From Rhizobiaceae bacterium (GTDB lineage Bacteria > Pseudomonadota > Alphaproteobacteria > Rhizobiales > Rhizobiaceae), in contig JAEPNK010000003.1 of assembly GCA_017643495.1 (NCBI GenBank), positions 1-64,000 on the forward strand: DNA of 64,000 nucleotides, in the 5' to 3' direction. The notes below the pieces were generated by a model. It was not told where the DNA came from, did not search any database, and saw only the letters and a program-made list of their open reading frames with translations. How positions within the stretch are numbered: position 1 is the stretch's first letter; every line of letters starts with the position of its first letter. Below, piece by piece: positions 1-43,925 of this stretch. Position numbers and translations under genes: made by a program.

Positions 1-535
1 ATATGAAGGGTTAATACAGGTCGTATGTCTTTTAGTCAGCCACGCTGATTATCTGACTTGTGTTATATGAAGGGTTAATTCCCATCTGAACCCAAAATAG
101 TTTGTTCTGTTACAGTGGGCAGTAATTCACAGCGAGCCAAAGAAAATTGTTCTCTGTAAAATGGGAAGGTAACTGTTAGATTAGCTATGGAAAGGTCAAG
201 GTAGTCAGAATTTGTCCATCAAATATGTACTATATGCAGCTTTAATTCCCCCGAGATTTTCCCAAAAAATCTGTGACCCCAAAATACACTCCAGTCTACT
301 CCAGGTTTCCCCATAGGGGGGTAAGGTGTTGCGTAGGCTTTAGGTGCACGTACGGCCTTCTGAGAAGCTCTCAGGATACAGTTGCGGGAGCTCTGTCGGT
401 TATCTTGAGGGTTCTTTGGGGTGGTAGACCAAACGGTAGACCAAACACGCCCCTTCACAACCAGCATCAAACCTGTAAACTGTTGATATCGTTGGATGTG
501 ATAGGTCGCTTGAGGCCTGGGATAGGAACCGAACC
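1..535. other. Gene-poor left flank with short repeats
   Basis: No convincing gene is visible here; the open frames are short and resemble nothing I recognise. A 15-bp direct repeat (ATATGAAGGGTTAAT) lies at 1-15 and 65-79. A tandem 12-bp repeat (GGTAGACCAAAC twice) lies at 423-446, and its core recurs inside both arms of the 93-bp inverted repeat. The bases just before the inverted repeat (about 516-535) weakly resemble the T-arm of a tRNA, so this may be a decayed attachment half-site. Confidence 0.5.
423..446. repeat. Tandem 12-bp repeat, candidate recombinase arm site
   Basis: GGTAGACCAAAC occurs twice head to tail. The core GGTAGACCA recurs at 619-627 and, inverted, at 4611-4619, directly before the recombinase start codon. 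The four copies around one small mobile cassette suggest arm-type binding sites of the cassette recombinase. That role is inferred. Confidence 0.4.
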
Positions 536-628
536 CCGTGTGGGGGCACCACTTTTCCCAAATCCCCTCAGGTTAACCCCATGATTTTCAATGGTTTTCT
601 ATTGGAGCACATGCGGAGGGTAGACCAT
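536..628 (+). repeat. Left arm of 93-bp inverted repeat (IR-L)
   Basis: This arm is the reverse complement of 4610-4702 with a single mismatch. It begins with the last 16 nt of the tRNA-Thr gene including the CCA end, and runs to the AT of the recombinase start codon. It then breaks off into the tail of the AlbA_2 gene cassette. Inverted orientation is unusual, because tyrosine-recombinase islands normally leave direct repeats. Confidence 0.9.
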
Positions 629-647
629 CTTCCTGAAAGTTACCGCA

Positions 648-1442
648 TTATCCCGAGTTCAATTGATTTTCTAAACGGTTTTTAACTAACCCTTCAATAG
701 CTCTGGCCTTTATCTGGGCACTGCCATTTCCATTCCTGAGATAAACTAGCTCGTCATCTAGGTTTCTGGGGTGACGGCAGACAGTGAGAGCATGACGCCT
801 AGGTCTAACAACAACTACACAGACAGTGACATCTCCAACGGTCACAAGCCGCCAACTTACATGCCCGATACAACTTCTGTAATCATGGATGTAGTGTTCT
901 AGCCTATTTGCAAAGTAGAGCTCCCAATCGTCTAGCGTTTTAGAATTGCCCGGGAGATAACCAAGTTCACACTCTAAACCACACGGTTCTGCATCGTCAT
1001 TAACCCCGACAAGTAGCGTTCCGCCGTCAGCATTTAAAAAAGCGCAAACTGTTTTTATACATTCAAAAACAATCTCTTGTGACACAAGGTGTTCGCGGGA
1101 TATTTGAGGGTTATCGACAAGTTGTTTCTTAAGATGCAAACTTTCTTTGAATTCGACCGATTGGCATTCTCCGCGACCTAATGCTTCGTCAAGAGCAGTC
1201 TCGAAACTCTCGGGTTGGCGCTTGCGAGCAATATAGCGGATTTCATCTAGTTCCCCTTCTAGTATTGGAGGGGTCATCTCAAGACCACATTCTTCGAGCT
1301 TTTTCTCTATTTCTTGACAAGCAGTGATCAAGCCCAACTCCTCAAACTCTGGAAACTTGCGAATTTCCTCAATGGTAATTTCTACACCAAACTGAAAGGC
1401 ATGAGCTACGAGGCCGAGGAGATTGGGTTCAGCAGTTTGCAT
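648..1442 (-). CDS. AlbA_2 (Schlafen-like) putative ATP-binding protein
   Basis: This 264-residue protein has an N-terminal helical region of about 90 residues that I do not recognise. An AlbA_2/Schlafen-type domain covers about residues 92-230, with the typical pattern SVEFKESL (95-102), CAFLNADGGTLLVGVNDD (133-150) and a later V-x-P segment. AlbA_2 domains are found in putative transcriptional regulators and in several phage-defence and restriction-linked genes; biochemical roles differ. The gene starts one base after the DUF262 nuclease gene ends, so the two are almost certainly co-transcribed and probably work together. It ends 19 bp from the left inverted-repeat arm. Domain assignment is fairly sure; a defence role is inferred. 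Confidence 0.75.
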   Translation of the reverse strand: MQTAEPNLLGLVAHAFQFGVEITIEEIRKFPEFEELGLITACQEIEKKLEECGLEMTPPILEGELDEIRYIARKRQPESFETALDEALGRGECQSVEFKESLHLKKQLVDNPQISREHLVSQEIVFECIKTVCAFLNADGGTLLVGVNDDAEPCGLECELGYLPGNSKTLDDWELYFANRLEHYIHDYRSCIGHVSWRLVTVGDVTVCVVVVRPRRHALTVCRHPRNLDDELVYLRNGNGSAQIKARAIEGLVKNRLENQLNSG

Positions 1443-1443
1443 T

Positions 1444-3375
1444 TTATCGAAGGCTAGTTAATTCAAGGAGATGGTCCGCAATCATTGAGGCTCGATGGTT
1501 CCAAAAAGCCTCAACCGAGGCGAGGCCTGAAGTGTTAAGTAAGTCAAATCCATGTCGATCAATATATGACTTTGAGAAACTCGCGGCAGCCTTGCCTTTA
1601 TACCTTACTGCTTTTTCAATAAAGAATGTTGATGGGCTCCTGGATTTCCATTCATTATTGAGCTTTCGTGAGATAGGCATCAGATTAGCGATGCTATCTA
1701 CATAGTTTTTATCACCAGTGTCCTTCCCGAGTATTTCGCGGTGCTCTCCAGATGCATTATCCCGACACCATTTTTTTGGATAAATGTGGTGTAACTCGAC
1801 TACTTTCTCTTCCGACCCTGACAATTGGTTGCCCATAAAATCTTCTTCGGATGAAGCTATCATTGGTAGCATGAGAGCCGATTGAAGAGCACCTCCGGGT
1901 CGTCCGTTTTGTAGTATCTCCTCGAGGTCTTCTTTACTTCGCACATCCGTGGGTTTGATCTCTCTATTGATTTCTTCTTCACAGTATTCGAGCCATTCTT
2001 CCACTGTCTGGAAGTTTCCCTTCGAACCCAGAAGTGTCTTCAAGAGGATCATGTCCGTGCCCATCTGCGACAAGAAACCCTGATCGTACCGAGATGCTAG
2101 AGCATTTCTCCAGAAAAAAGCTCGGTACAGTTTATTCAGGTCTGCTATGGACCAGCTTCCGTGGGTGTTCTCGGGATCAAATCTCTTGTGCCACCTGAGA
2201 CCAACGTAAATTCCTGCTGATATAGGGTAGGGCGATTGACTGTATCCAAATGTTCCTCCGGCAACTGTTTCTTGAAAATCTCCTATAAACTGTGAAAATT
2301 CTGCGGTATTTTCGATGACTTTTAACCAGTGTTCAACTGGAGTTGCCAACAAGTCGGATGACTTAACAGTTGTAATTTTTCGTGTTCGTGAAGACCCAGC
2401 AATCCTGCGCGGCTCAGGTTTTGTAGGTAGGTCTGAAAGAGCAACGAAGCAAGCAGTCACTAGCTGTGCAATAAGCTCCGGTCTTTTTCTTGGCAATGCC
2501 CATCCCAATGCACCATCAATTTCAGCTAAGTCATCCATCCATTCTCTTAGGTGAACTTCGTCGTTAGTATCGCGAAGTAACCAGGAGTTTATCAAGTCAA
2601 CTGTTGATACTTTCATCCCCGTCAAGTTCAGTGTTTCAAAGATTTCGCAGATTTGCCCCAGATCGTATCGTTGCGGAACTATACAGGCGCCGAGTTTGGT
2701 CTCGGTAATGCCCTCAAAGGCTTTTTGAAGAATGCCATCTCTTCGTTCGATTTCTTCCGCTGAGGGGTAATCACCATCGGGATAGATGGTTTTATCTTTT
2801 AGTTTCTGTATATAGCCATACCACTGTTTAAGTAAGCTTTGTCCAGCTTCAAAACTGGCCAAGGGAAAATATCCTTTTGCAATACAGGCGGGAAGATTTG
2901 ATAACCCTTCTTTTTCTATGGCAGATTTCTTTTTAAAAATTATGCGTTCCAATGGGTCTTTAAGGGATGCATTAAGAAAGTATTTTCCCGCATATTTATT
3001 CCCTCCAAATTTTGGAGAAAATCCAGCGAATGCCATAGCTAAGGCTGTGCTTCTCTGCCGCCCATCAAGTATAGCCATTGTTTGTGAAGGGTTCGCATGT
3101 GGATCACCAAACTCTCTCACCACTCTCTGTCGCTGTTGAACATCCCAATCGTCTATAGCGAGAGGTTCGAGATCGATATGAGACTGAGACGGTTGTTCCC
3201 AAAGAGTAACCATTCCTATTGGATAACCGTCAATAACAGACGTAGCTAGTCCAGCTACCGCCGAAGGGTCCCAAACAAATTCTCGTTGGAAGCGCGGAAT
3301 TTTCCATCTTCGTTCTTTTAGGTTTTCCAATACTTCTGAAATCGAAAGCTCCGAAATTCTAATACCTGAGGACAT
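1444..3375 (-). CDS. DUF262-DUF1524 (GmrSD/SspE-like) HNH nuclease
   Basis: This 643-residue protein has an N-terminal DUF262 domain with PRFQREFVW (27-35) and the NTPase-like signature DGRQR (104-108). The C-terminal DUF1524 HNH-type nuclease domain starts near 525, with ELHHIYPKKW and IANLMPISRKLNNEWKSRSP. In GmrSD type IV restriction enzymes and in SspE these domains use NTP hydrolysis to gate cleavage of modified or phosphorothioate-marked foreign DNA. No ssp, dnd or partner modification genes are in view, so the target is unknown. It sits between the recombinase and the AlbA_2 gene, all on one strand with short gaps. The family call is strong; the specificity is not known. Confidence 0.85.
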   Translation of the reverse strand: MSSGIRISELSISEVLENLKERRWKIPRFQREFVWDPSAVAGLATSVIDGYPIGMVTLWEQPSQSHIDLEPLAIDDWDVQQRQRVVREFGDPHANPSQTMAILDGRQRSTALAMAFAGFSPKFGGNKYAGKYFLNASLKDPLERIIFKKKSAIEKEGLSNLPACIAKGYFPLASFEAGQSLLKQWYGYIQKLKDKTIYPDGDYPSAEEIERRDGILQKAFEGITETKLGACIVPQRYDLGQICEIFETLNLTGMKVSTVDLINSWLLRDTNDEVHLREWMDDLAEIDGALGWALPRKRPELIAQLVTACFVALSDLPTKPEPRRIAGSSRTRKITTVKSSDLLATPVEHWLKVIENTAEFSQFIGDFQETVAGGTFGYSQSPYPISAGIYVGLRWHKRFDPENTHGSWSIADLNKLYRAFFWRNALASRYDQGFLSQMGTDMILLKTLLGSKGNFQTVEEWLEYCEEEINREIKPTDVRSKEDLEEILQNGRPGGALQSALMLPMIASSEEDFMGNQLSGSEEKVVELHHIYPKKWCRDNASGEHREILGKDTGDKNYVDSIANLMPISRKLNNEWKSRSPSTFFIEKAVRYKGKAAASFSKSYIDRHGFDLLNTSGLASVEAFWNHRASMIADHLLELTSLR

Positions 3376-3432
3376 TTTCTAACCTTCTATTGAAACACAG
3401 TGGACTTGACCTGTGTCTAATCTGCATCCTAC

Positions 3433-4611
3433 TCAAACATCAATTGCTGTGTGAAGCCATTTTGATAGGATGCTAAGAGGATAACCGGCGCCGTAAGTTT
3501 CGCCAACTCCTTGAACAGACCAGCCTCCAATCCGATCAATGATGTCTGGCGGACACTCAACCGCCCTTAACCTATCCCTCATGCTGTGCCGAAAAGAATG
3601 CACTACACAACCTTTTGGGACCCTCGGTGTAAGCCACTTGTTAAGTGCGGCACTTGCTGTATTGGCTTTGCAACCGTCATTGTTACAGTACTTGGGAAAC
3701 AAGAAGCGGCTCTTAGTGCCCCCGGTGGCTCTGTCGGCAGCCCATAGGGCCACTCCTACCAGAGGAACGACACGTTCGCTGCCGCTGGTCTTCAAGCGTC
3801 TCCAAGGATGTGGTTTTAGCAAGATATGAGGATGTTTTGCTTGGAGTTTGATGTCCGAAGAAGTCAGACCAGCAGCTTCACTCAGACGCATACCTGTGTC
3901 GCTAATGAGTGCTATCAGCCATCGCGCCTCATCATCGATTTCACGACATTCGCATTGTATCTTTCTAATGTACTCAAGAGGTAAGGGTAGACGTTTATTC
4001 GGAAGGGAAGCTTGTGGCTCCCCGAGATAGATACCTGTAAAGACATTGATGTCAGGAAGGCCGTGCTCTTGTGTTGTGAAGTTCACCAGCGCTCGGAGCA
4101 CATTGAAGTTCCTTTTGATACTTGCAGCGGCAAGACCTCTCTCAGCCAAGACATCCCGGAGTTGGTTGATCTCTAGTCTGCTGTAGGCATTGATTGGTTT
4201 ATCACCCAGTAGATCAGTCATGTACCGGACAGCCCGATCTACTCCCTGGATGAAGGTCTTGGGGCGTCCTCTGTTTTTGGCTTTAAGATAGAGTTCCTTT
4301 GCTTCAGCCATTGGAGGAGCATCGGTTGTAGTTGGAGGGATGCTACCTGGTGCCACTAGTCCTTGTTTGTCCACTAAGAACTTCTTAAAGGGAGCGCTTG
4401 ATGATCTCCACCTAAGTACAATCCAGTCTTCATCTAGCTTGGATTTGAGCGATGATGCTCTTGCGACGGCTGCCTGGTGTGACCTTGTACGCAACGAAAT
4501 GACAATTCTGGTGAGATTGTAGTGGCTCTTAAGGTCTTCAGGGATCCTTCGTGAGAAGTAATAGATGCCTCGTTTGGTGAATATGTAAGAGGCTGATTTG
4601 GTGTACCGCAT
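3433..4611 (-). CDS. Tyrosine recombinase of the small cassette
   Basis: This 392-residue phage-type integrase has a short DUF6538-like N-terminus (KRGIYYFSRRIPEDL), a core-binding region, and a catalytic domain with Arg in DTGMRLSEA, HSFRHSMRDRL for the H-x-x-R box, GGWS in place of the usual GH, and a Tyr near YGAGY. The start codon coincides with the inner end of the right inverted-repeat arm, and the Shine-Dalgarno GGAGG lies inside that arm seven bases upstream. Before the prophage inserted, this gene lay just downstream of tRNA-Thr, the usual place for an island integrase, and could have been transcribed from it. Confidence 0.9.
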   Translation of the reverse strand: MRYTKSASYIFTKRGIYYFSRRIPEDLKSHYNLTRIVISLRTRSHQAAVARASSLKSKLDEDWIVLRWRSSSAPFKKFLVDKQGLVAPGSIPPTTTDAPPMAEAKELYLKAKNRGRPKTFIQGVDRAVRYMTDLLGDKPINAYSRLEINQLRDVLAERGLAAASIKRNFNVLRALVNFTTQEHGLPDINVFTGIYLGEPQASLPNKRLPLPLEYIRKIQCECREIDDEARWLIALISDTGMRLSEAAGLTSSDIKLQAKHPHILLKPHPWRRLKTSGSERVVPLVGVALWAADRATGGTKSRFLFPKYCNNDGCKANTASAALNKWLTPRVPKGCVVHSFRHSMRDRLRAVECPPDIIDRIGGWSVQGVGETYGAGYPLSILSKWLHTAIDV

Positions 4612-4702
4612 GGTCTACCCTCCGCATGTGCTCCAATAGAAAACCATTGAAAATCATGGGGTTAACCTGAGGGGATTTGGGAAGAGTGGTGCCCCCACAC
4701 GG
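4610..4702 (-). repeat. Right arm of 93-bp inverted repeat (IR-R)
   Basis: This is the inverted partner of 536-628, matching 92 of 93 bases. It contains the recombinase ribosome-binding site at its inner end and the last 16 nt of tRNA-Thr at its outer end. It overlaps the prophage left attachment site by 16 bp (4687-4702). Confidence 0.9.
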
Positions 4703-4733
4703 ACTCGAACCGCGGACCTACTGATTACAAATC
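4687..4733 (-). repeat. Prophage attachment site attL
   Basis: A 47-bp sequence identical to 43850-43896, covering the tRNA-Thr gene from its anticodon loop to the CCA end. Identity stops exactly at 4733/43896. The prophage integrase gene is adjacent to the other copy. Everything between the two copies reads as one phage genome. Confidence 0.95.
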
Positions 4734-4830
4734 TGACAAAGTGCCTTTCTTTTCAATGTCTTGCATATGACATTGCATTTTGTGCGACGAATCCAGCCAT
4801 TTTCGGCGCTTTTACACACATTAAATCACG

Positions 4831-5502
4831 ATGAAGGTTCTGGTCGGCTGTGAATATTCAGGCACGGTCAGGCGGGCCTTTGCCCTGCTCGGGCATGATG
4901 CCTGGTCGTGCGACCTGCTGCCCGCCGAGGACCGTTCCAACAAGCATATTGTCGGCGATGTGCGCGATGTATTGCATCTTGGATGGGACCTGCTTGTGGT
5001 CTGCCATCCGCCATGCACCCGCCTTTGCCGTTCCGGCCGCCGCTGGCTTTCAGGGCCGGGCAAGATGACACCACCCAAAAAGCTGCCAAAAGGCCGGACA
5101 TGGGAAAGCATGAAGCGCGAGTTTGACGAGGCCGTGAACCTGTTTCTGGCCTGCTGGAATGCGCCGGTTGAGCATGTGGCAATAGAAAACCCCGAAATGC
5201 ATGATCTGGCGCGCGACCGCATGCCGGAAATTCCAAAACCGCAAATGGTTCAGCCGTTCTGGTTCGGCCATCCGGAATACAAGGCGACCGGCTGGTATCG
5301 CAAGAACCTGCCCGAATTGAAGGAAACCAACCGCCTGCCCGAGCCGGAGCGCGACAGCAAGGAATGGAAGGCATGGAACCGGGTATGGCGCATGCCGCCC
5401 AACGAAAATCGCGGTCACGAGCGCAGCCGATTTTTCCCCGGCATGGCCGATGCACTGGCCGTTCAATGGAGTGAACACGTCATGGAAAGGAAAGCAGCAT
5501 GA
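4831..5502 (+). CDS. Phage C5-cytosine methyltransferase-like protein
   Basis: This 223-residue protein starts with VGCEYSGTVRRAF, a variant of the SAM-binding motif I, followed by a CDLLP acidic segment. It has the catalytic PPC of C5-methyltransferases (CHPPCTRLC, about residue 60) and an ENP motif (VAIENPEM) matching the ENV box. Similar compact proteins are common in alphaproteobacterial phages and are called DNA cytosine methyltransferases. It is shorter than classical C5 enzymes, with no obvious separate target-recognition domain. It is the first gene inside attL and opens a rightward operon whose next gene overlaps its stop codon. A protective role against host restriction is inferred. 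Confidence 0.7.
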   Translation: MKVLVGCEYSGTVRRAFALLGHDAWSCDLLPAEDRSNKHIVGDVRDVLHLGWDLLVVCHPPCTRLCRSGRRWLSGPGKMTPPKKLPKGRTWESMKREFDEAVNLFLACWNAPVEHVAIENPEMHDLARDRMPEIPKPQMVQPFWFGHPEYKATGWYRKNLPELKETNRLPEPERDSKEWKAWNRVWRMPPNENRGHERSRFFPGMADALAVQWSEHVMERKAA

Positions 5503-5849
5503 CTAACGAAACAGACAACAACCCGCCATTTGTCATTGTCAACCAGCATCAGGACTGGTGGAAGCCGTATATCCGGGCGGATGCCTATCCGGACATTGTC
5601 GACAAGATCGACAACGTCATGAGGCGTGAAAATACGCCCCAAACCTGCGCGGAAGCAGACCGGCAAACCAAAGAGCGGTTCAAGCGCGGCGATGTGGTCC
5701 AGCTGAAAGGTGGTGGCCTGCGAATGACAGTCGCCATGATTTGCATCGAAGATGTCACCTGTCAGTGGTTCGACGGCACCAAGCTGGATGAACACGACTT
5801 TCACTGCGACGTGTTGCGTCTCGTCGGCCCTGATGAACTTCCGTTCTGA
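5499..5849 (+). CDS. DUF2158 (YodC-like) protein
   Basis: This 116-residue protein has an N-terminal part without known similarity. A C-terminal DUF2158/YodC-type domain covers about 60-110, with FKRGDVVQLKGGG, MTV and CQWFDGTKL. Members are small proteins of unknown function that often occur in phages and beside mobile genes. The start codon overlaps the stop of the methyltransferase-like gene (ATGA), so translation is likely coupled. Confidence 0.7.
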   Translation: MTNETDNNPPFVIVNQHQDWWKPYIRADAYPDIVDKIDNVMRRENTPQTCAEADRQTKERFKRGDVVQLKGGGLRMTVAMICIEDVTCQWFDGTKLDEHDFHCDVLRLVGPDELPF

Positions 5850-5882
5850 CGGGTCTCAACAAAACAGTGAAAGGATAGCAGC

Positions 5883-6749
5883 ATGAGCAGGCCACGAGGA
5901 TTTATTGCAGACTGGTCACCAAAGCCAGCAACAGCAGACTTGATCGAAAGTGTCCAATTAATTCTCGACGCAAATCGAGACATCGCACCTCTAACCTTGC
6001 GCCAGATTTTTTACATGCTGGTATCTGGTTATCACTACGAAAAAACAGAGAAGGCATACAAACGTCTTTGTGAAACGATGAACAAGGCCAGGCGGGCAAG
6101 ATGGGTGAGCATGGACGAAATTCGCGACGATGGATTACGCCGCGAAGACCCTGATGGATGGCAAGACGAGGCCACCATCATTGACACGTTTAAAAGCTAC
6201 GCTGATCGGTTTCGCCTTAACCGTCAGCAAAACCAGCCGTGTCAGTTAATTGTGTGGTGTGAAGCTGGTGGCATGCTGCCGCAACTTGCCCGGTATTGTC
6301 AGGATTTTGGTGTTTCGGTTCTTTCATCAGGGGGGTTTGACAGCGTCACAACAAAACACAATTTCGCTAAGGAAGCAGCCGCACACGACTTGGTGAATAT
6401 TCTGCATATTGGTGATCACGACCCTTCTGGAGTGCACATGTACTCCAGCCTCGACGAAGACCTGCAAGCATTCATTGCGTACTATGGCGGAGATATATCA
6501 GTAGACCGGATCGCGGTCACACCAGAACAGGTTGAAGAAATGCGGTTACCAACCGCCCCGGCAAAATCAACAGATCGCCGCGCTTTTTCTGGCCGCACTA
6601 CGCAAGCGGAAGCAATACCGCCAAGGCGGTTGCGCGACATAGTTACTGCGGCGATCGAAGCTCGGATGGAAATGGATACCTACGAGGAAACATTACGAGC
6701 CGAAGACCAAATTCGGGCATCACTGTCCGAGAGACTGGCACGACTATAA
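5883..6749 (+). CDS. Spo11/TopoVI-A-like TOPRIM protein
   Basis: This 288-residue protein has two features of the Spo11/topoisomerase VI A group. The first is an N-terminal LTLRQIFYML box (37-46) whose Tyr44 sits where TopoVI-A has its catalytic tyrosine (R-x-I-Y/F-Y). The second is a TOPRIM domain with the acidic strand IVWCEAGG (Glu127) and the D-x-D motif GDHDPSG (Asp178, Asp180). No TopoVI-B or Wadjet (JetABC) partner is nearby. Relatives with the LTLRQIFY box are scattered in phages and plasmids without a known role. Codon use is more AT-rich than the preceding methyltransferase gene, which suggests separate acquisition. The catalytic comparison is by motif only. Confidence 0.6.
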   Translation: MSRPRGFIADWSPKPATADLIESVQLILDANRDIAPLTLRQIFYMLVSGYHYEKTEKAYKRLCETMNKARRARWVSMDEIRDDGLRREDPDGWQDEATIIDTFKSYADRFRLNRQQNQPCQLIVWCEAGGMLPQLARYCQDFGVSVLSSGGFDSVTTKHNFAKEAAAHDLVNILHIGDHDPSGVHMYSSLDEDLQAFIAYYGGDISVDRIAVTPEQVEEMRLPTAPAKSTDRRAFSGRTTQAEAIPPRRLRDIVTAAIEARMEMDTYEETLRAEDQIRASLSERLARL

Positions 6750-6765
6750 GAAAGACGACTGAACA

Positions 6766-7056
6766 ATGAACACCGCAACCCGCATCAATATCAACACGGA
6801 AGAAATTGTTTGCCCGCGCTGCAGCGAGCCGATTCCGTTTGAAATGAGTGACGCCATCCCCTGGGTATACTCTTGGTTGACCAGAGACCGGGAGGGCTAT
6901 GTGACAGACCTTTCTTTTGTCACCAAAAGCCCCCCTTTTTCTTGCCCTTCCTGCAATGTCTTGCTGATTGGCAGAAAGGATGTGGATGGCCTTCCTGCAT
7001 GGCTGTTTACCTGCAGGACCGAACAGGATTTGCGATACCAGTCGGGAGATTACTAA
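6766..7056 (+). CDS. Small zinc-ribbon-like phage protein
   Basis: This 96-residue protein has two CPxC knuckles (CPRC near 17, CPSC near 60), consistent with a zinc ribbon. I do not recognise a family. It is the fourth gene of the rightward accessory operon. Confidence 0.5.
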   Translation: MNTATRININTEEIVCPRCSEPIPFEMSDAIPWVYSWLTRDREGYVTDLSFVTKSPPFSCPSCNVLLIGRKDVDGLPAWLFTCRTEQDLRYQSGDY

Positions 7057-7065
7057 TGAGGACAG

Positions 7066-7377
7066 ATGTCGGAGTACAGCGGCATGATTGAGATACTGAC
7101 TAATGTGCTGACGATCGCGGCCTTGATATTCGTTGTAGTGGCACCGTCAGTGCCAATGATGATCTACGTCGCTGGCCATCAGAAGCGAATGGAAGAACTA
7201 GAAGAAAATCTCCGTTTGCGGCGGAAGGAGTACCAAAAAAGAAAAGTTGAAAGCGAGAAGTTCATCGCTGAAAGCAAGAAACGTACCGCAGAACTTCAGC
7301 AGCATTTGGCAGAACTTAGGCGGCACAGGAATAGAACCCTCGGCGGCCACCCCACGAACAAGGGAGAGAGTGAGTGA
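7066..7377 (+). CDS. Membrane-anchored coiled-coil protein
   Basis: This 103-residue protein has one transmembrane helix near residues 10-34 and then a charged, heptad-like coiled coil (about 40-90). Its family is unknown. The stop codon overlaps the start of the next gene. An anchored coiled coil could serve superinfection exclusion, but nothing proves that. Confidence 0.5.
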   Translation: MSEYSGMIEILTNVLTIAALIFVVVAPSVPMMIYVAGHQKRMEELEENLRLRRKEYQKRKVESEKFIAESKKRTAELQQHLAELRRHRNRTLGGHPTNKGESE

Positions 7378-7670
7378 AAAAGCTTCAACCAGAAGATTTT
7401 GCAAACACAACATTTGATGAAGCTAATCGACTAAGAAGATTGATGCTGAACCGCTATAACTGCAATACAGCAATAGTGGATGAACAATCAGCGGTTTTTC
7501 TTCTTACCGAAAAAGCATGGAGAGATATTATCTCAAGTGCTGATTATGCATTCGCCATAGACATGCATCGAAAAAGGCTTTTTGGAATTCCGATCCGTGT
7601 AACCCATGACGACGAGCCGGACACGCCGCGAATTCAATTGCTCATGGAGCCGCAACTTTCGCCACGATAA
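7374..7670 (+). CDS. Hypothetical protein at the end of the accessory operon
   Basis: This 98-residue protein begins with GTG, which overlaps the previous stop (GTGA). It is not recognised and has no membrane segment. It is followed by a convergent intergenic gap with a hairpin. Confidence 0.45.
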   Translation: MKKLQPEDFANTTFDEANRLRRLMLNRYNCNTAIVDEQSAVFLLTEKAWRDIISSADYAFAIDMHRKRLFGIPIRVTHDDEPDTPRIQLLMEPQLSPR

Positions 7671-7712
7671 ACCATGCAGGAATGTATTCCTGACATGACG
7701 GGAAAGGCAAAC

Positions 7713-7745
7713 AAAAAAAGCCCCGGAAGCTTTCGCAACCGGGGC
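7713..7745 (-). terminator. Rho-independent terminator of the leftward late operon
   Basis: GCCCCGG and CCGGGGC form a perfect 7-bp stem around a 12-nt loop, with a run of seven A on the plus strand that becomes a U-run in leftward transcripts. It lies 46 bp past the Acb2-like gene and between convergent operons. Confidence 0.8.
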
Positions 7746-7790
7746 AGTTGGACAACCGGACACGCATGACGCCCGGTCGGGGATACGTTC

Positions 7791-8027
7791 TTAAAGCGCC
7801 TTGGTCTGCGCCTTCACAGCCCACATGGCCGCTTCTTCAATATGTGTCATTGCCAGTGCTTTCAGTCGAAACCGTTCTTTCGCCAGCCCGCCTTCTTCCT
7901 CGCCGAGTTCAATTTCATCGACAAGGTCAATCAGATCAGCTGCAGCCCGCTTCAGACGCCCCACCTTGTCATCGGAAGACGGGTTGAAGTCGATGCCGAC
8001 ACGAAACTCACCTTTGGTTTTTGACAT
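7791..8027 (-). CDS. Acb2/Tad1-type hairpin protein (candidate anti-CBASS)
   Basis: This 78-residue protein is built as a helical hairpin: FNPSSDDKVGRLKRAAADLI, an acidic turn, then a second helix ending in THIEEAAMWAVKAQTK. The pattern FNPS...K..AA.LIDL...ALA.T..E.AAMWAVKA matches what I recall of the Acb2/Tad1 hairpin family of small phage proteins. Characterised members bind and sequester cyclic nucleotide signals of CBASS or Thoeris immunity. It is the last gene of the leftward late operon, just before a terminator. The assignment rests on pattern memory; related hairpin proteins without sponge activity may exist. Confidence 0.55.
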   Translation of the reverse strand: MSKTKGEFRVGIDFNPSSDDKVGRLKRAAADLIDLVDEIELGEEEGGLAKERFRLKALAMTHIEEAAMWAVKAQTKAL

Positions 8028-15841: not shown

Positions 15842-17484
15842 ATCCGGCAAGCCTCCAGCACGTCTGCCTTGGTCACACCCGCATTCGCTTCCTCAACAGC
15901 CGCCTTCGCCGTCAGCTGGCGGGGGTTCCCGTTGTCGTCAAAAAGCGTGATCAGGTTGGCAGCATCGGTTTCGTCCATGTCCTCAAGATCGGGAACCAGC
16001 CTTTGCGCATCCGCAAGGCTCGCCTGCAATTCCGGCTCAAGCTCACCATAATTGACTGGCACGTCACCCTCACCGGTCGCGGCAGGCTTTCCCCGGCCAG
16101 GCAATGGATCAGGGGCAAGCGCCTCCCCGGCCAGCGGATCGGCTGTTTGGGAGTAATTGTCGGCATGACGCGATTGCGCGTGATCGATCGCGGCAGCGAC
16201 CGGGTCCACTTCATCGCCCAGATCATAGAGACGGATATAATCATCCGTGGTCAGGCTGCCCCGCTGCAGTTCGAGGTCGGCCATTTCCCGTTCAAGGATT
16301 TCGGGCGGCAGGTTGTTGTCCGGATCGTCCGCATAGCGCAAGGCGCTTTGTGAAAGGGACACCCTGGCCTTGTCTGCATTTTCGGGCAGCACAAAGGTTG
16401 AACCCGCATTCTGCAGATAGTCATTGTCAACAAGGTCCCGTTCAAAACCGGCCGCGATTGTTTCCGTTTCAAACGGGGTCAGCTCGCGGTCAAGAAAGGT
16501 GGAAAGCTCGCTTTCAAGCAAAGCCTGGTCTCGCGGCTCCAGCGTGTCATTGAAAGCACGCTCCAGAACGGACACACCTTCGTCAGTCAGCTTTTTGTTG
16601 TTGTTCGCCCTGGCAATGGCCCGGATGGCCTCCCCTGCAGTTTGCGCACCACCCCCAAGGGCACCGCCAAACAGCGCCGCAATACCGACATTGCGCAAGC
16701 CCTCTTCAAAACCGTATTCCAGCCCGGCCCGCCGCCTCAAATCCTGTGATTTGAGCTGCAAGGGAACCTCGATGGCCCCGCTTATCGCGGCATTGGCCGC
16801 CGTTGTCCGGGCCACCCTTGCAGCAATGGTACGGCCGGCACCGGCACCACCCCCCAGAAAGACCGTTGCAATCTGGAAGGGATCGCGCGCCATCCCGGCA
16901 AATGCGCCGGCAAGACCGGTCACACCTTTCTGGAAGGCATTCAGATCGCTTTCCGCATAAACGCGGTCGCGCTGCCTTTCCGCATCGGCCGTGATTTTCA
17001 AAGCCGATTCGGCGAGCGTCCGGCCACCATCGGTAATGGCATCCGCAAACTCGGGATATTGTTCTGCCAGCTCGCCAATCCGTTCCTCGAACTCACGCTT
17101 CTGCACGGCTTGAGCCCGTGCCGCATTGCCGGCCGGTTTTCCGAACACGTTCAGGACGGGGTCCTTGCGCGGGTCGATATTGGAAGCATCAAGCGGATTG
17201 GCCAGGTCAACACCTGTCATCCTGCGCACCGCCTCAATCCTGTTCTGGTATGCCTTGTAGCTTGCTTCCCGTTCAGCCGTCAGGTTGTCGACGTAAACCT
17301 GCACATTCGTCTCGGCTTCAAGAAGTGTCCGGAACTTGGGCAGGTTGCGCCGCAACGCCACCGCTGCAGCTGATAGGCCGGTCTGTTCGTTACCCTGCTC
17401 GTCGATTTCCCGGCCGGTAGGTTGCCGGACAGGCTCATAAAAGCTTTCCCGGAATTTCGGATCATCGAGAAACATTATTTCCAT
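15838..17484 (-). CDS. Internal virion protein (second of three)
   Basis: This 548-residue protein is rich in Ala, Glu and Arg. It has a central glycine/alanine-rich hydrophobic region (about 195-300: VTGLAGAFAGMARDPF, AALFGGALGGGAQTAGEA) between helical charged parts. This is a plausible membrane-inserting segment for an ejection protein. A second in-frame ATG three codons in overlaps the previous gene's stop and is an equally good start. The role is assigned from position. Confidence 0.5.
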   Translation of the reverse strand: MEIMFLDDPKFRESFYEPVRQPTGREIDEQGNEQTGLSAAAVALRRNLPKFRTLLEAETNVQVYVDNLTAEREASYKAYQNRIEAVRRMTGVDLANPLDASNIDPRKDPVLNVFGKPAGNAARAQAVQKREFEERIGELAEQYPEFADAITDGGRTLAESALKITADAERQRDRVYAESDLNAFQKGVTGLAGAFAGMARDPFQIATVFLGGGAGAGRTIAARVARTTAANAAISGAIEVPLQLKSQDLRRRAGLEYGFEEGLRNVGIAALFGGALGGGAQTAGEAIRAIARANNNKKLTDEGVSVLERAFNDTLEPRDQALLESELSTFLDRELTPFETETIAAGFERDLVDNDYLQNAGSTFVLPENADKARVSLSQSALRYADDPDNNLPPEILEREMADLELQRGSLTTDDYIRLYDLGDEVDPVAAAIDHAQSRHADNYSQTADPLAGEALAPDPLPGRGKPAATGEGDVPVNYGELEPELQASLADAQRLVPDLEDMDETDAANLITLFDDNGNPRQLTAKAAVEEANAGVTKADVLEACRI

Positions 17485-26089: not shown

Positions 26090-27678
26090 GCAATGGCCCC
26101 CTGTGCTTGTTGGTCTTGCGGTATTTTCGCCGCTTCAAGTGCATATTCCGCGGCAGTGGCAACAGCAATCTGCTGTTGTTTTTGCTGGCGGATGGACTGG
26201 CGTTCCTCATTACTCGGTGCCAGACGGTGATCGATATCAAGAACCTTGCGCGCATCGGCCAGAACTTCATCAGCCTTGATGTGCTCGTCTGAATTTTGCG
26301 GACCGGCAATTGCGGTTACCATGTCAAAATAGGTCACCGAGGCTTCCAGCTTTCTGGCGTCCAGCGCTTGCTGCATTGGTGAACGGACCTTTGTCGTCAC
26401 CAGCAATTCGTTCAGCTGCACAGGTGACTGGATATAACCCTGCTCGTAGAGGATTTCTGTTGCCCGTGGTGCAAGCACCGGCATGCTTTCCCGGCTCAAA
26501 CGGCCAAAGGCACCGATGTTTGCATCGGCCCGGTCCTGAAGACTTGCGACGATCTGCGAAGCGCTGGGCGGCGTAAGTCCTTTTTGTTCCAGCCGGTTGT
26601 CAAGCAACAGCCCCTTGATATCATCACGCATGCCGTCAATCACGACACGCGCAATGTTGAAATTCGCTGTAGCGGGATCAAGGCGCTGCACATCCGGGCC
26701 AAACTGCCCACCGGTTGACATCATGGGCCAGAATTCACCAGGCCCCATGTGGGCCGTGTCCGGATTGAATGTGCCGCCAGTACGGTAACCCCATATGCCA
26801 AGCAGTTGTACGGCAGCCGAACGCAATGCCAGCTCCTGCGCCTTGTTCAGCGTCATGATGGTCGGCATGCCAAGCAGGATAGGCCCCCGGCCATAAGGTT
26901 CCCCCGGGCCACGGAAATAACGCATCACGGCAATCGGTTGCGTCCGGGTACGGGCCTCAATGATGAATTCCGTGCAATATTTTTCTGTATAGGCAACCCA
27001 TATCCAGCCGTGTGCGGTTTTCCAGAAGTCCTGGTATATTTCGAGCTCGTCATTGGGCTTGGACTTCAATTGCTCCATGAACGCATCGGAGAAGCGCCCG
27101 GTATCGCGAAAACCGTAATGGATTTCTTCAATGGTCAGCCTTTGCTTCCAGCTGATATAGGTCAGCCTGCCCCACAGGTCGCCCTTGCAGGCAAGGTTTT
27201 CAAAGGGAACATTGGCAAAGAACAAGGGTTGGTGCTTGTCACCATGCACCGGCATAATGGCACCGGTTCCGATGCCAAGGTCCATGCATGCCTCATTGGC
27301 GGAAGTATCAAAATCACCGGACTGAAAAAACGGATCAACGCGGTTGGCAATGCCCTGGTATTCTTTTTCGAGCACGATCAGCTCGCGCGCCTTGAGCTCG
27401 TTTTGCAACAGGGGGCCGGCCTCATATGTAAACTTTGAGCTGGCCGCGGGAAACAGGTCTTTCTGGAGATTGCCGGCAAAGTACATCGCCCCCATTGGAG
27501 CGGTCATGTCAGTCAGCTTGTCGATATCGAAAGTTGATGTCTTGCCAACATTCTGCCTGTGCGGCAGTGCGTAATCATAGGCATTCTGGATATACCGGTT
27601 CCAGTGGTTCCTTGTCTCCCAGACTGCCTTTGCCTTCACAAGCTGCCGGGCAACTGGCGTACCTTCATCGCTCGCCAT
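26086..27678 (-). CDS. Portal (head-tail connector) protein
   Basis: This 530-residue protein matches T7 gp8-like portals. It has an N-terminal helical stem part, YALPHRQNV, a YFRGPGEPYGRGPILLGMP segment typical of this family, and a long helical C-terminus with Gln-rich end. The portal forms the ring through which the terminase packs DNA. Neighbours (terminases before, scaffold and capsid after) agree. Confidence 0.85.
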   Translation of the reverse strand: MASDEGTPVARQLVKAKAVWETRNHWNRYIQNAYDYALPHRQNVGKTSTFDIDKLTDMTAPMGAMYFAGNLQKDLFPAASSKFTYEAGPLLQNELKARELIVLEKEYQGIANRVDPFFQSGDFDTSANEACMDLGIGTGAIMPVHGDKHQPLFFANVPFENLACKGDLWGRLTYISWKQRLTIEEIHYGFRDTGRFSDAFMEQLKSKPNDELEIYQDFWKTAHGWIWVAYTEKYCTEFIIEARTRTQPIAVMRYFRGPGEPYGRGPILLGMPTIMTLNKAQELALRSAAVQLLGIWGYRTGGTFNPDTAHMGPGEFWPMMSTGGQFGPDVQRLDPATANFNIARVVIDGMRDDIKGLLLDNRLEQKGLTPPSASQIVASLQDRADANIGAFGRLSRESMPVLAPRATEILYEQGYIQSPVQLNELLVTTKVRSPMQQALDARKLEASVTYFDMVTAIAGPQNSDEHIKADEVLADARKVLDIDHRLAPSNEERQSIRQQKQQQIAVATAAEYALEAAKIPQDQQAQGAIA

Positions 27679-43849: not shown

Positions 43850-43896
43850 TGGTGCCCCCACACGGACTCGAACCGCGGACCTACTGATTACAAATC
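43850..43896 (-). repeat. Prophage attachment site attR
   Basis: A 47-bp direct repeat of 4687-4733 forming the 3' part of tRNA-Thr. The crossover lies somewhere in this segment, probably near the anticodon loop. Confidence 0.95.
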
Positions 43897-43925
43897 AGTT
43901 GCTCTACCAGCTGAGCTATAGGGGC
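43850..43925 (-). tRNA. tRNA-Thr (UGU anticodon)
   Basis: The complement folds into a 76-nt cloverleaf with a 7-bp acceptor stem (GCCCCTA with TGGGGGC), the anticodon loop TTTGTAA giving anticodon UGU, the T-loop TTCGAGT and an encoded CCA end. The gene is intact: the prophage restores the 3' half on integration. Confidence 0.95.

Follow-up and report, generated by a model that had tools for sequence, protein, structure and literature searches.

The question raised by the beginning of this stretch of DNA (the window, by which we mean all 64,000 nucleotides analysed, from contig JAEPNK010000003.1 of a Rhizobiaceae bacterium) is what kind of element is formed by three genes that lie between two inverted copies of a sequence ending in part of a tRNA gene. 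A sequence-only reading had proposed a cassette comprised of a DUF262-HNH gene, an AlbA_2 gene and a recombinase gene, which might be flipped as a unit. The genes themselves are as claimed and the Pfam families agree, the HNH part being recognised by eye only:

648 to 1442, minus strand: AlbA_2 (Schlafen-type) protein of 264 aa, cargo (PF04326, SLFN_AlbA_2, E 3.9e-13)
1444 to 3375, minus strand: DUF262/GmrSD_N protein of 643 aa, cargo (PF03235, E 5e-24; PADLOC HEC-05)
3433 to 4611, minus strand: int, a DUF6538-type tyrosine recombinase of 392 aa (PF20172 and PF00589)

Residues R242, K274, H338, R341, W364 and Y373 of Int, which we take to be the catalytic residues, are invariant in an alignment with 12 relatives. 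The 93-bp inverted arms said to frame the cassette are likewise real. Positions 536-628 and 4610-4702 are 99% complementary in inverted orientation over 93 nt (blastn 98.9%, E 8e-42), and the sole mismatch (92/93 matching) is at base 554. The outer ends of the arms consist of the last 16 nt of tRNA-Thr and the inner ends reach the start of the recombinase gene (GGAGGGTAGACCAT), the left arm being without the ATG because the copy goes on with C instead of G. The runner-up inverted repeat within positions 1-8000 of the window is just 33 nt long at 79%, and a chance origin of the arms is therefore excluded.

In complete relatives these arms are part of a longer arrangement, which runs tRNA-core-arm-[int, cargo]-arm'-core'-E1'-[second cargo chamber]-E1-core-chromosome; the two chambers are referred to here as A and B, and the cores as core1 to core3, counted from the tRNA. 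When the cores of six loci were compared, attL was found to read tRNA-side-core-arm, the internal site E1-core-arm in inverted orientation, and attR E1-core-chromosome; no tRNA was called at the attL of L055, L068 and L070, and L066, which was also in this comparison, is without an E1 pair. Three cores also line up in G040, and in the window when it is taken together with contig C15 of the source assembly. The int of G040 is 58-59% identical to that of the window and its locus has the order tRNA-Leu, core, arm, int, one unrelated cargo gene, inverted arm, inverted core, E1 and contig end, whilst a second G040 contig opens with an identical E1 and core and then passes into other DNA. The far half, with E1 as a second inverted repeat, is visible in single-contig genomes and in Ruegeria sp. 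TM1040, whose island lies at about 586-599 kb of the megaplasmid NC_008043. Among the 15 loci with at least 10 kb after int, 9 have an inverted pair of E1 type (minimum 150 bp and 90%), the pairs measuring 1028, 468, 394, 320, 304, 291, 383 and 1148 bp at 96.9-100% and, in L078, 150 bp at 93%; it was missing in the other six (L060, L066, L067, L077, L079 and L165).

Direct attL and attR sites with a common core are present in the six loci, in G040 and, via the C15 end, in the window, and excision would therefore be available besides inversion. An int with conserved residues lies beside a tRNA 3' end, as in other integrative islands, the tRNA part in the window being the 47-nt fragment at 4687-4733. 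An island with inverted att sites only was considered and rejected, as a direct attR is present on C15 and in relatives. Judged by its sequence, the left arm of the window forms the inner border of an internal attP that is both complete and inverted (E1, core and arm), and the cassette is probably half of a larger tRNA-targeted island with three att sites, this being the usual design of the recombinase family. The earlier description of a cassette between inverted att repeats was correct in placing inverted att sites beside a tyrosine recombinase, and incomplete in that what it described would be one edge of a three-core island. In these terms the remaining features of the window are as follows:

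1 to 535, plus strand: far-end stretch (E1, possibly with the start of chamber B) of the putative internal inverted attP; 481-535 are repeated beside the core at the C15 end, 411-535 align with the G040 E1, and the contig starts at base 1
423 to 446, plus strand: two 12-bp motifs of arm type (GGTAGACCAAAC) in direct orientation within E1, presumably sites for the integrase, seen in the sequence and conserved in the G040 E1
454 to 481, plus strand: weak promoter-like site in E1, directed at the core, from a promoter scan whose 5 sites against 6.3 expected by shuffling are at or under chance
536 to 628, plus strand: core2 (about 536-553) and the inverted arm, together the inner part of the putative internal inverted attP, from the sequence and the same element in relatives
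4596 to 4607, minus strand: second int-proximal arm-type motif (GGTACACCAAAT), lying within int and missing from the inverted copy, seen in the sequence
4610 to 4702, minus strand: island attL (core1 and arm) at the int start, from the sequence and inverted-repeat comparison
4687 to 4733, minus strand: 47-nt 3' part of tRNA-Thr left by a prophage-like segment, the target of the island, from direct-repeat comparison
43850 to 43925, minus strand: intact tRNA-Thr (tgt), from tRNA calling

Base 1 of the window is base 1 of contig C12, and window positions 481-557 match the final 77 nt of C15 without a difference; beyond them C15 diverges into other DNA that includes a regulator-like gene (named by eye). 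Exact 77-mers are also common to four other pairs of readable contig ends in the source assembly, and the C12/C15 overlap is therefore a branch of the assembly graph; the stretch ending in the core evidently has two continuations, the arm (C12) and other DNA (C15). The attR of the window island would thus be located on C15 by the 77-bp overlap. Its placement rests on this overlap because the readable contigs of the source assembly yielded no chamber B for the window's island and the C15 flank is missing from relatives, the flank gene being found in 1 of 12 genomes of the genus (G000, the source genome) and missing from the 11 others searched.

Between the island and the intact tRNA-Thr lies a 39-kb prophage-like segment (4687-43896), bounded by a 47-nt direct repeat (4687-4733 and 43850-43896) and with phage-family matches for four of five sampled proteins (methyltransferase, topoisomerase, endolysin and tail fibre). 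From the repeat and the phage-family proteins it follows that the island sits in the tRNA part left by this segment. The source genome also holds a remnant of a related element at tRNA-Leu (L006, about 6820-6960 of G000:C10), which retains an arm at 75% and the beginning of an int gene.

Homologous inverted arms in related genomes, the lack of which the sequence-only reading would have counted against itself, were found with other cargo and at other tRNAs. In total 81 int genes were examined, the window included; near-full-length genes were retrieved, and further copies and fragments in one family of 61 genomes were left out. Arms (inverted, at least 30 bp) were counted at the 64 loci with flanks of at least 100 bp before and at least 300 bp after int, and were present in 51 of these and in 25 of the 31 genes with at least 4 kb after int. 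All 58 arms, loci with short flanks included, have a median length of 81 bp and a median identity of 100% (minimum 84.8%), 33 of them being exactly 100%. The arm was missing in 13 of the 64 loci, some of which have only 0.4-1.7 kb after int; L072, L077, L082, L139, L147 and L157 are armless despite at least 4 kb there. None of nine distant tyrosine integrases has an inverted arm in 1.5-kb flanks.

The distribution of int itself is uneven. Searches found it in 8 of 297 genomes of the window's family (E 1e-30), several of the matches being distant, in 12 of 397 genomes of the order and 10 of 385 of the class (both E 1e-40), and in 32 of 61 genomes of one family, which we guess to be SAR116-like, with 1 of 5 and 2 of 20 in two others (E 1e-60). 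Across the phylum 5 of 398 genomes matched, all in the window's class, and one of these is a distant integrase. One plasmid record was found. Viral contigs gave no match with int alignment A1 and three loci with alignment A3, L163 with arms and two without (one of these, L164, has 178 bp after int), and phage records gave two partial int matches at 32%. Among the loci retrieved, L020 (about 4912-5400, G019) has a truncated int of the family right behind tRNA-Phe, and L150 and L153 are tandem islands at one tRNA-Thr, in which the E1 end of the first island is followed by the arm and int of the second.

The internal core follows the tRNA into which each island is inserted. A 12-mer inside the 3' end of the island's own tRNA was sought in inverted orientation downstream of int, where at least 150 bp was present, and was found in 33 of 46 islands compared with 10 of 1986 for the tails of other tRNAs; a core test at a fixed offset, which fails at indels and contig ends, gave 23 of 31. 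The arms behave similarly: with the first 18 nt left out, their identity is 0.984 within islands and 0.73 between nearest relatives, and it is higher within the island in 34 of 36 cases (exceptions L071 and L141), in a comparison that covers 36 of the 58 arm pairs and takes the arm ends from the within-island match, a choice that biases it towards identity within islands. Going by these sequences, core2 must be exchanging sequence with core1 or core3 to some extent, and RecA gene conversion alone could homogenise the repeats. In L069 (1821-17791) the tRNA and attR cores are of Gly type and the internal core matches Arg tails, as though this island had already switched target but its cores had yet to be homogenised; its chamber B carries TRAP-transporter and metabolic genes, which in G977 are located outside the island.

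Several observations concern the far half of the islands. In Ruegeria sp. TM1040 (L084) identical BRO-family genes lie within both E1 copies (16511-17086 and 26855-27430), around a type I restriction system, and in L058 (6903-9004) one E1 copy is split, with a DDE_3 transposase-type gene between the pieces, the other copy being whole. A candidate case of chamber B in two orientations, a 9.5-kb reversed match between L069 and L077, was discarded, as L077 is without chamber B and its matching genes, which are transporter and metabolic genes, are outside its island. Protein matches between chambers B fall mostly in E1, in both orientations, and the others (L153/L143 and L071/L140 opposite, L055/L070 the same) are too weak or ill-bounded.

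The geometry of the cores permits inversion of A, inversion of B and excision. Recombination of core1 with core3 would be ordinary excision. Core2 and its flanks would make up a complete attP (E1-core-arm) in the opposite orientation, and the excised circle would therefore hold two inverted attP sites. Inversion of A (core1 x core2) or of B (core2 x core3) would preserve all att sites, because the arm and E1 are inverted repeats, and Int, perhaps with host gene conversion, may recombine core2 with the other cores and so keep the repeats alike. Inversion of A would also be directional: the internal attP has no counterpart of the second int-proximal arm-type motif, so that Int would carry its gene towards the tRNA and seldom return it. 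The model for this is lambda Int, with which a complete attP recombines with a simpler partner unaided, whilst the reverse reaction needs an excision factor. The int start is spanned by two arm-type motifs 12 bp apart, and it is between or within these motifs that the inverted copy stops. Of 24 islands lined up, 10 have a motif legible by eye, and in 9 of these (the window, L019, L055, L057, L058, L062, L064, L065 and L084) the internal attP is without the second motif; L061 has both motifs in both arms, contrary to the directionality model. Inversion as a programmed step is plausible. Taken furthest, these elements would be a new class of three-att integrative element, with Int-driven programmed inversion (directional in the chromosome) and 2-micron-like amplification on the circle, multiplying exchangeable defence cargo; we offer this full reading tentatively and regard it as doubtful.

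Other explanations of the inverted att copy have to be weighed against this. It is extremely improbable that the window is an assembly chimera: the left arm does lie near the contig start, where exactly 77 bp are common to two contigs, but the two arms are not identical, differing at base 554, and the same arms occur in the single-contig genomes G374, G412, G888 and G1054 and in the complete Ruegeria sp. TM1040 megaplasmid. The earlier concern that the left arm might be an assembly duplication can be dismissed, as the design recurs in single-contig genomes. The sequence-only reading itself saw a reversible phase-variation switch, in which chamber A flips freely and turns the cargo operon on and off. 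Its geometry was right, in that recombination of the inverted arms would invert the segment between them, and such a switch is favoured by inverted att arms that frame the segment beside a recombinase with conserved key residues, and by one flipped locus, L111 (1200-3774), in which E1-core-arm-int is directed away from E1 and tRNA-Arg faces the chamber's other end. However, the distal end of L111 has a 20-nt core and no arm copy, and C12 passes unbroken through both arms of the window. Above all, 52 loci have a called tRNA at the int start, against a single locus, L111, in which it faces the opposite end, and both orientations are thus not common; this 52:1 bias (p about 1e-14 at equal odds, a figure which is overstated as the loci are related) rules out free on/off switching as the default. 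Free flipping of the cassette is not supported, and a switch of this kind is very unlikely.

Amplification in the manner of the yeast 2-micron, in which Int would invert between two attP copies on a replicating circle and thereby produce multimers and a gain in copy number, would account for the inverted copy in another way. The 2-micron layout is that of two inverted copies with the recombinase gene abutting the repeat, and the circle proposed here would likewise hold two inverted recombination sites inside longer inverted repeats. A PrimPol/DUF5906 helicase-type gene is present in one chamber B (L071), but no replication gene was recognised among the sampled genes of other chambers B, and we consider this explanation unlikely. 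Quite unlikely, too, is a passive structure, in which the inverted att copy would be a single ancient duplication that is kept identical by RecA gene conversion and is useless to the element. With 291-1148 bp, the E1 pairs have sufficient length for homologous recombination, and islands that have lost the arm or chamber B persist (L077 and L141); against this, arms of ~80 bp are near 100% identical in islands on different tRNAs, the internal core changes with the target, and the design has been kept across many genera while the cargo changes.

Returning to the three-site island, an anti-phage role of the DUF262/AlbA_2 cargo is plausible by analogy. GmrSD, HEC-05/06 (PADLOC) and the solved DUF262 protein 7p9k have in common with the window protein an N-terminal DUF262 domain and, by eye, an HNH-like C-terminus (in the window protein no Pfam hit was found there at 0.001), but here the DUF262 protein is paired with an AlbA_2 protein. 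The DUF262 protein has a DGRQR motif (DGQQR-type) at residue 104 and its HEC-05 matches lie mainly in residues 9-118. The pair was found again without the recombinase, the window AlbA_2 protein being 45% identical to the partner of the second DUF262 gene. One relative of the DUF262 gene was found in the genome collection; in the class draw of 385 genomes only G000, the source genome, matched, and there was none in the plasmids searched. Several other islands carry defence-type cargo, and in L061 (428-4015) chamber A has PP2C, kinase and vWA genes, a possible defence trio. DUF262 and AlbA_2 together form a two-gene candidate defence pair that is open to testing.

On the sequences compared here, the island appears to belong to a class of mobile element that has attracted little attention, and not to be an isolated switch. 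Its design is common (int matched in 32 of the 61 genomes in one family), and the extent of such islands is easy to misjudge: an island resembles a small cassette, as in the window and G040, because draft assemblies can break inside E1 and leave chamber B and attR on other contigs. If inversion belongs to its life cycle, the element would be the bacterial equivalent of the Flp/2-micron system and would offer a novel means of keeping defence cargo mobile. In yeast, the 2-micron has two inverted sites for Flp within longer inverted repeats, the recombinase gene abutting one of them, and two unique regions; here, in contrast, the element is integrated at tRNA genes, and inversion and amplification are only hypothetical. 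Islander-type tRNA-targeted tyrosine-integrase islands share with it the integrase beside the tRNA 3' end, direct attL/attR and exchangeable cargo, but here a third, complete and inverted attP would divide the island in two, giving chambers that are each bounded by inverted repeats. No description of a three-site island with an inverted internal attP was found in the open-licence literature searched. Tandem SGI1 arrays (PMC2297512) likewise have an internal attP in the integrated array, but there it lies between tandem copies and its recombination excises, whereas here it is inverted and within one island. The strand-biased circularizing integrative elements, RIT and Tn554-like elements also combine tyrosine recombinases with inverted terminal repeats (PMC10214605), but their recombinase genes number two or three and their terminal repeats are short and imperfect, in contrast to the one recombinase and the internal att-containing inverted repeat found here. 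Finally, in the PinQ/e14 invertible segment (PMC12529663), recombinase-driven inversion is tied to resistance against phage T2; there a serine recombinase creates a new tail-protein fusion and the segment is not an att-flanked defence island, unlike the element proposed here.
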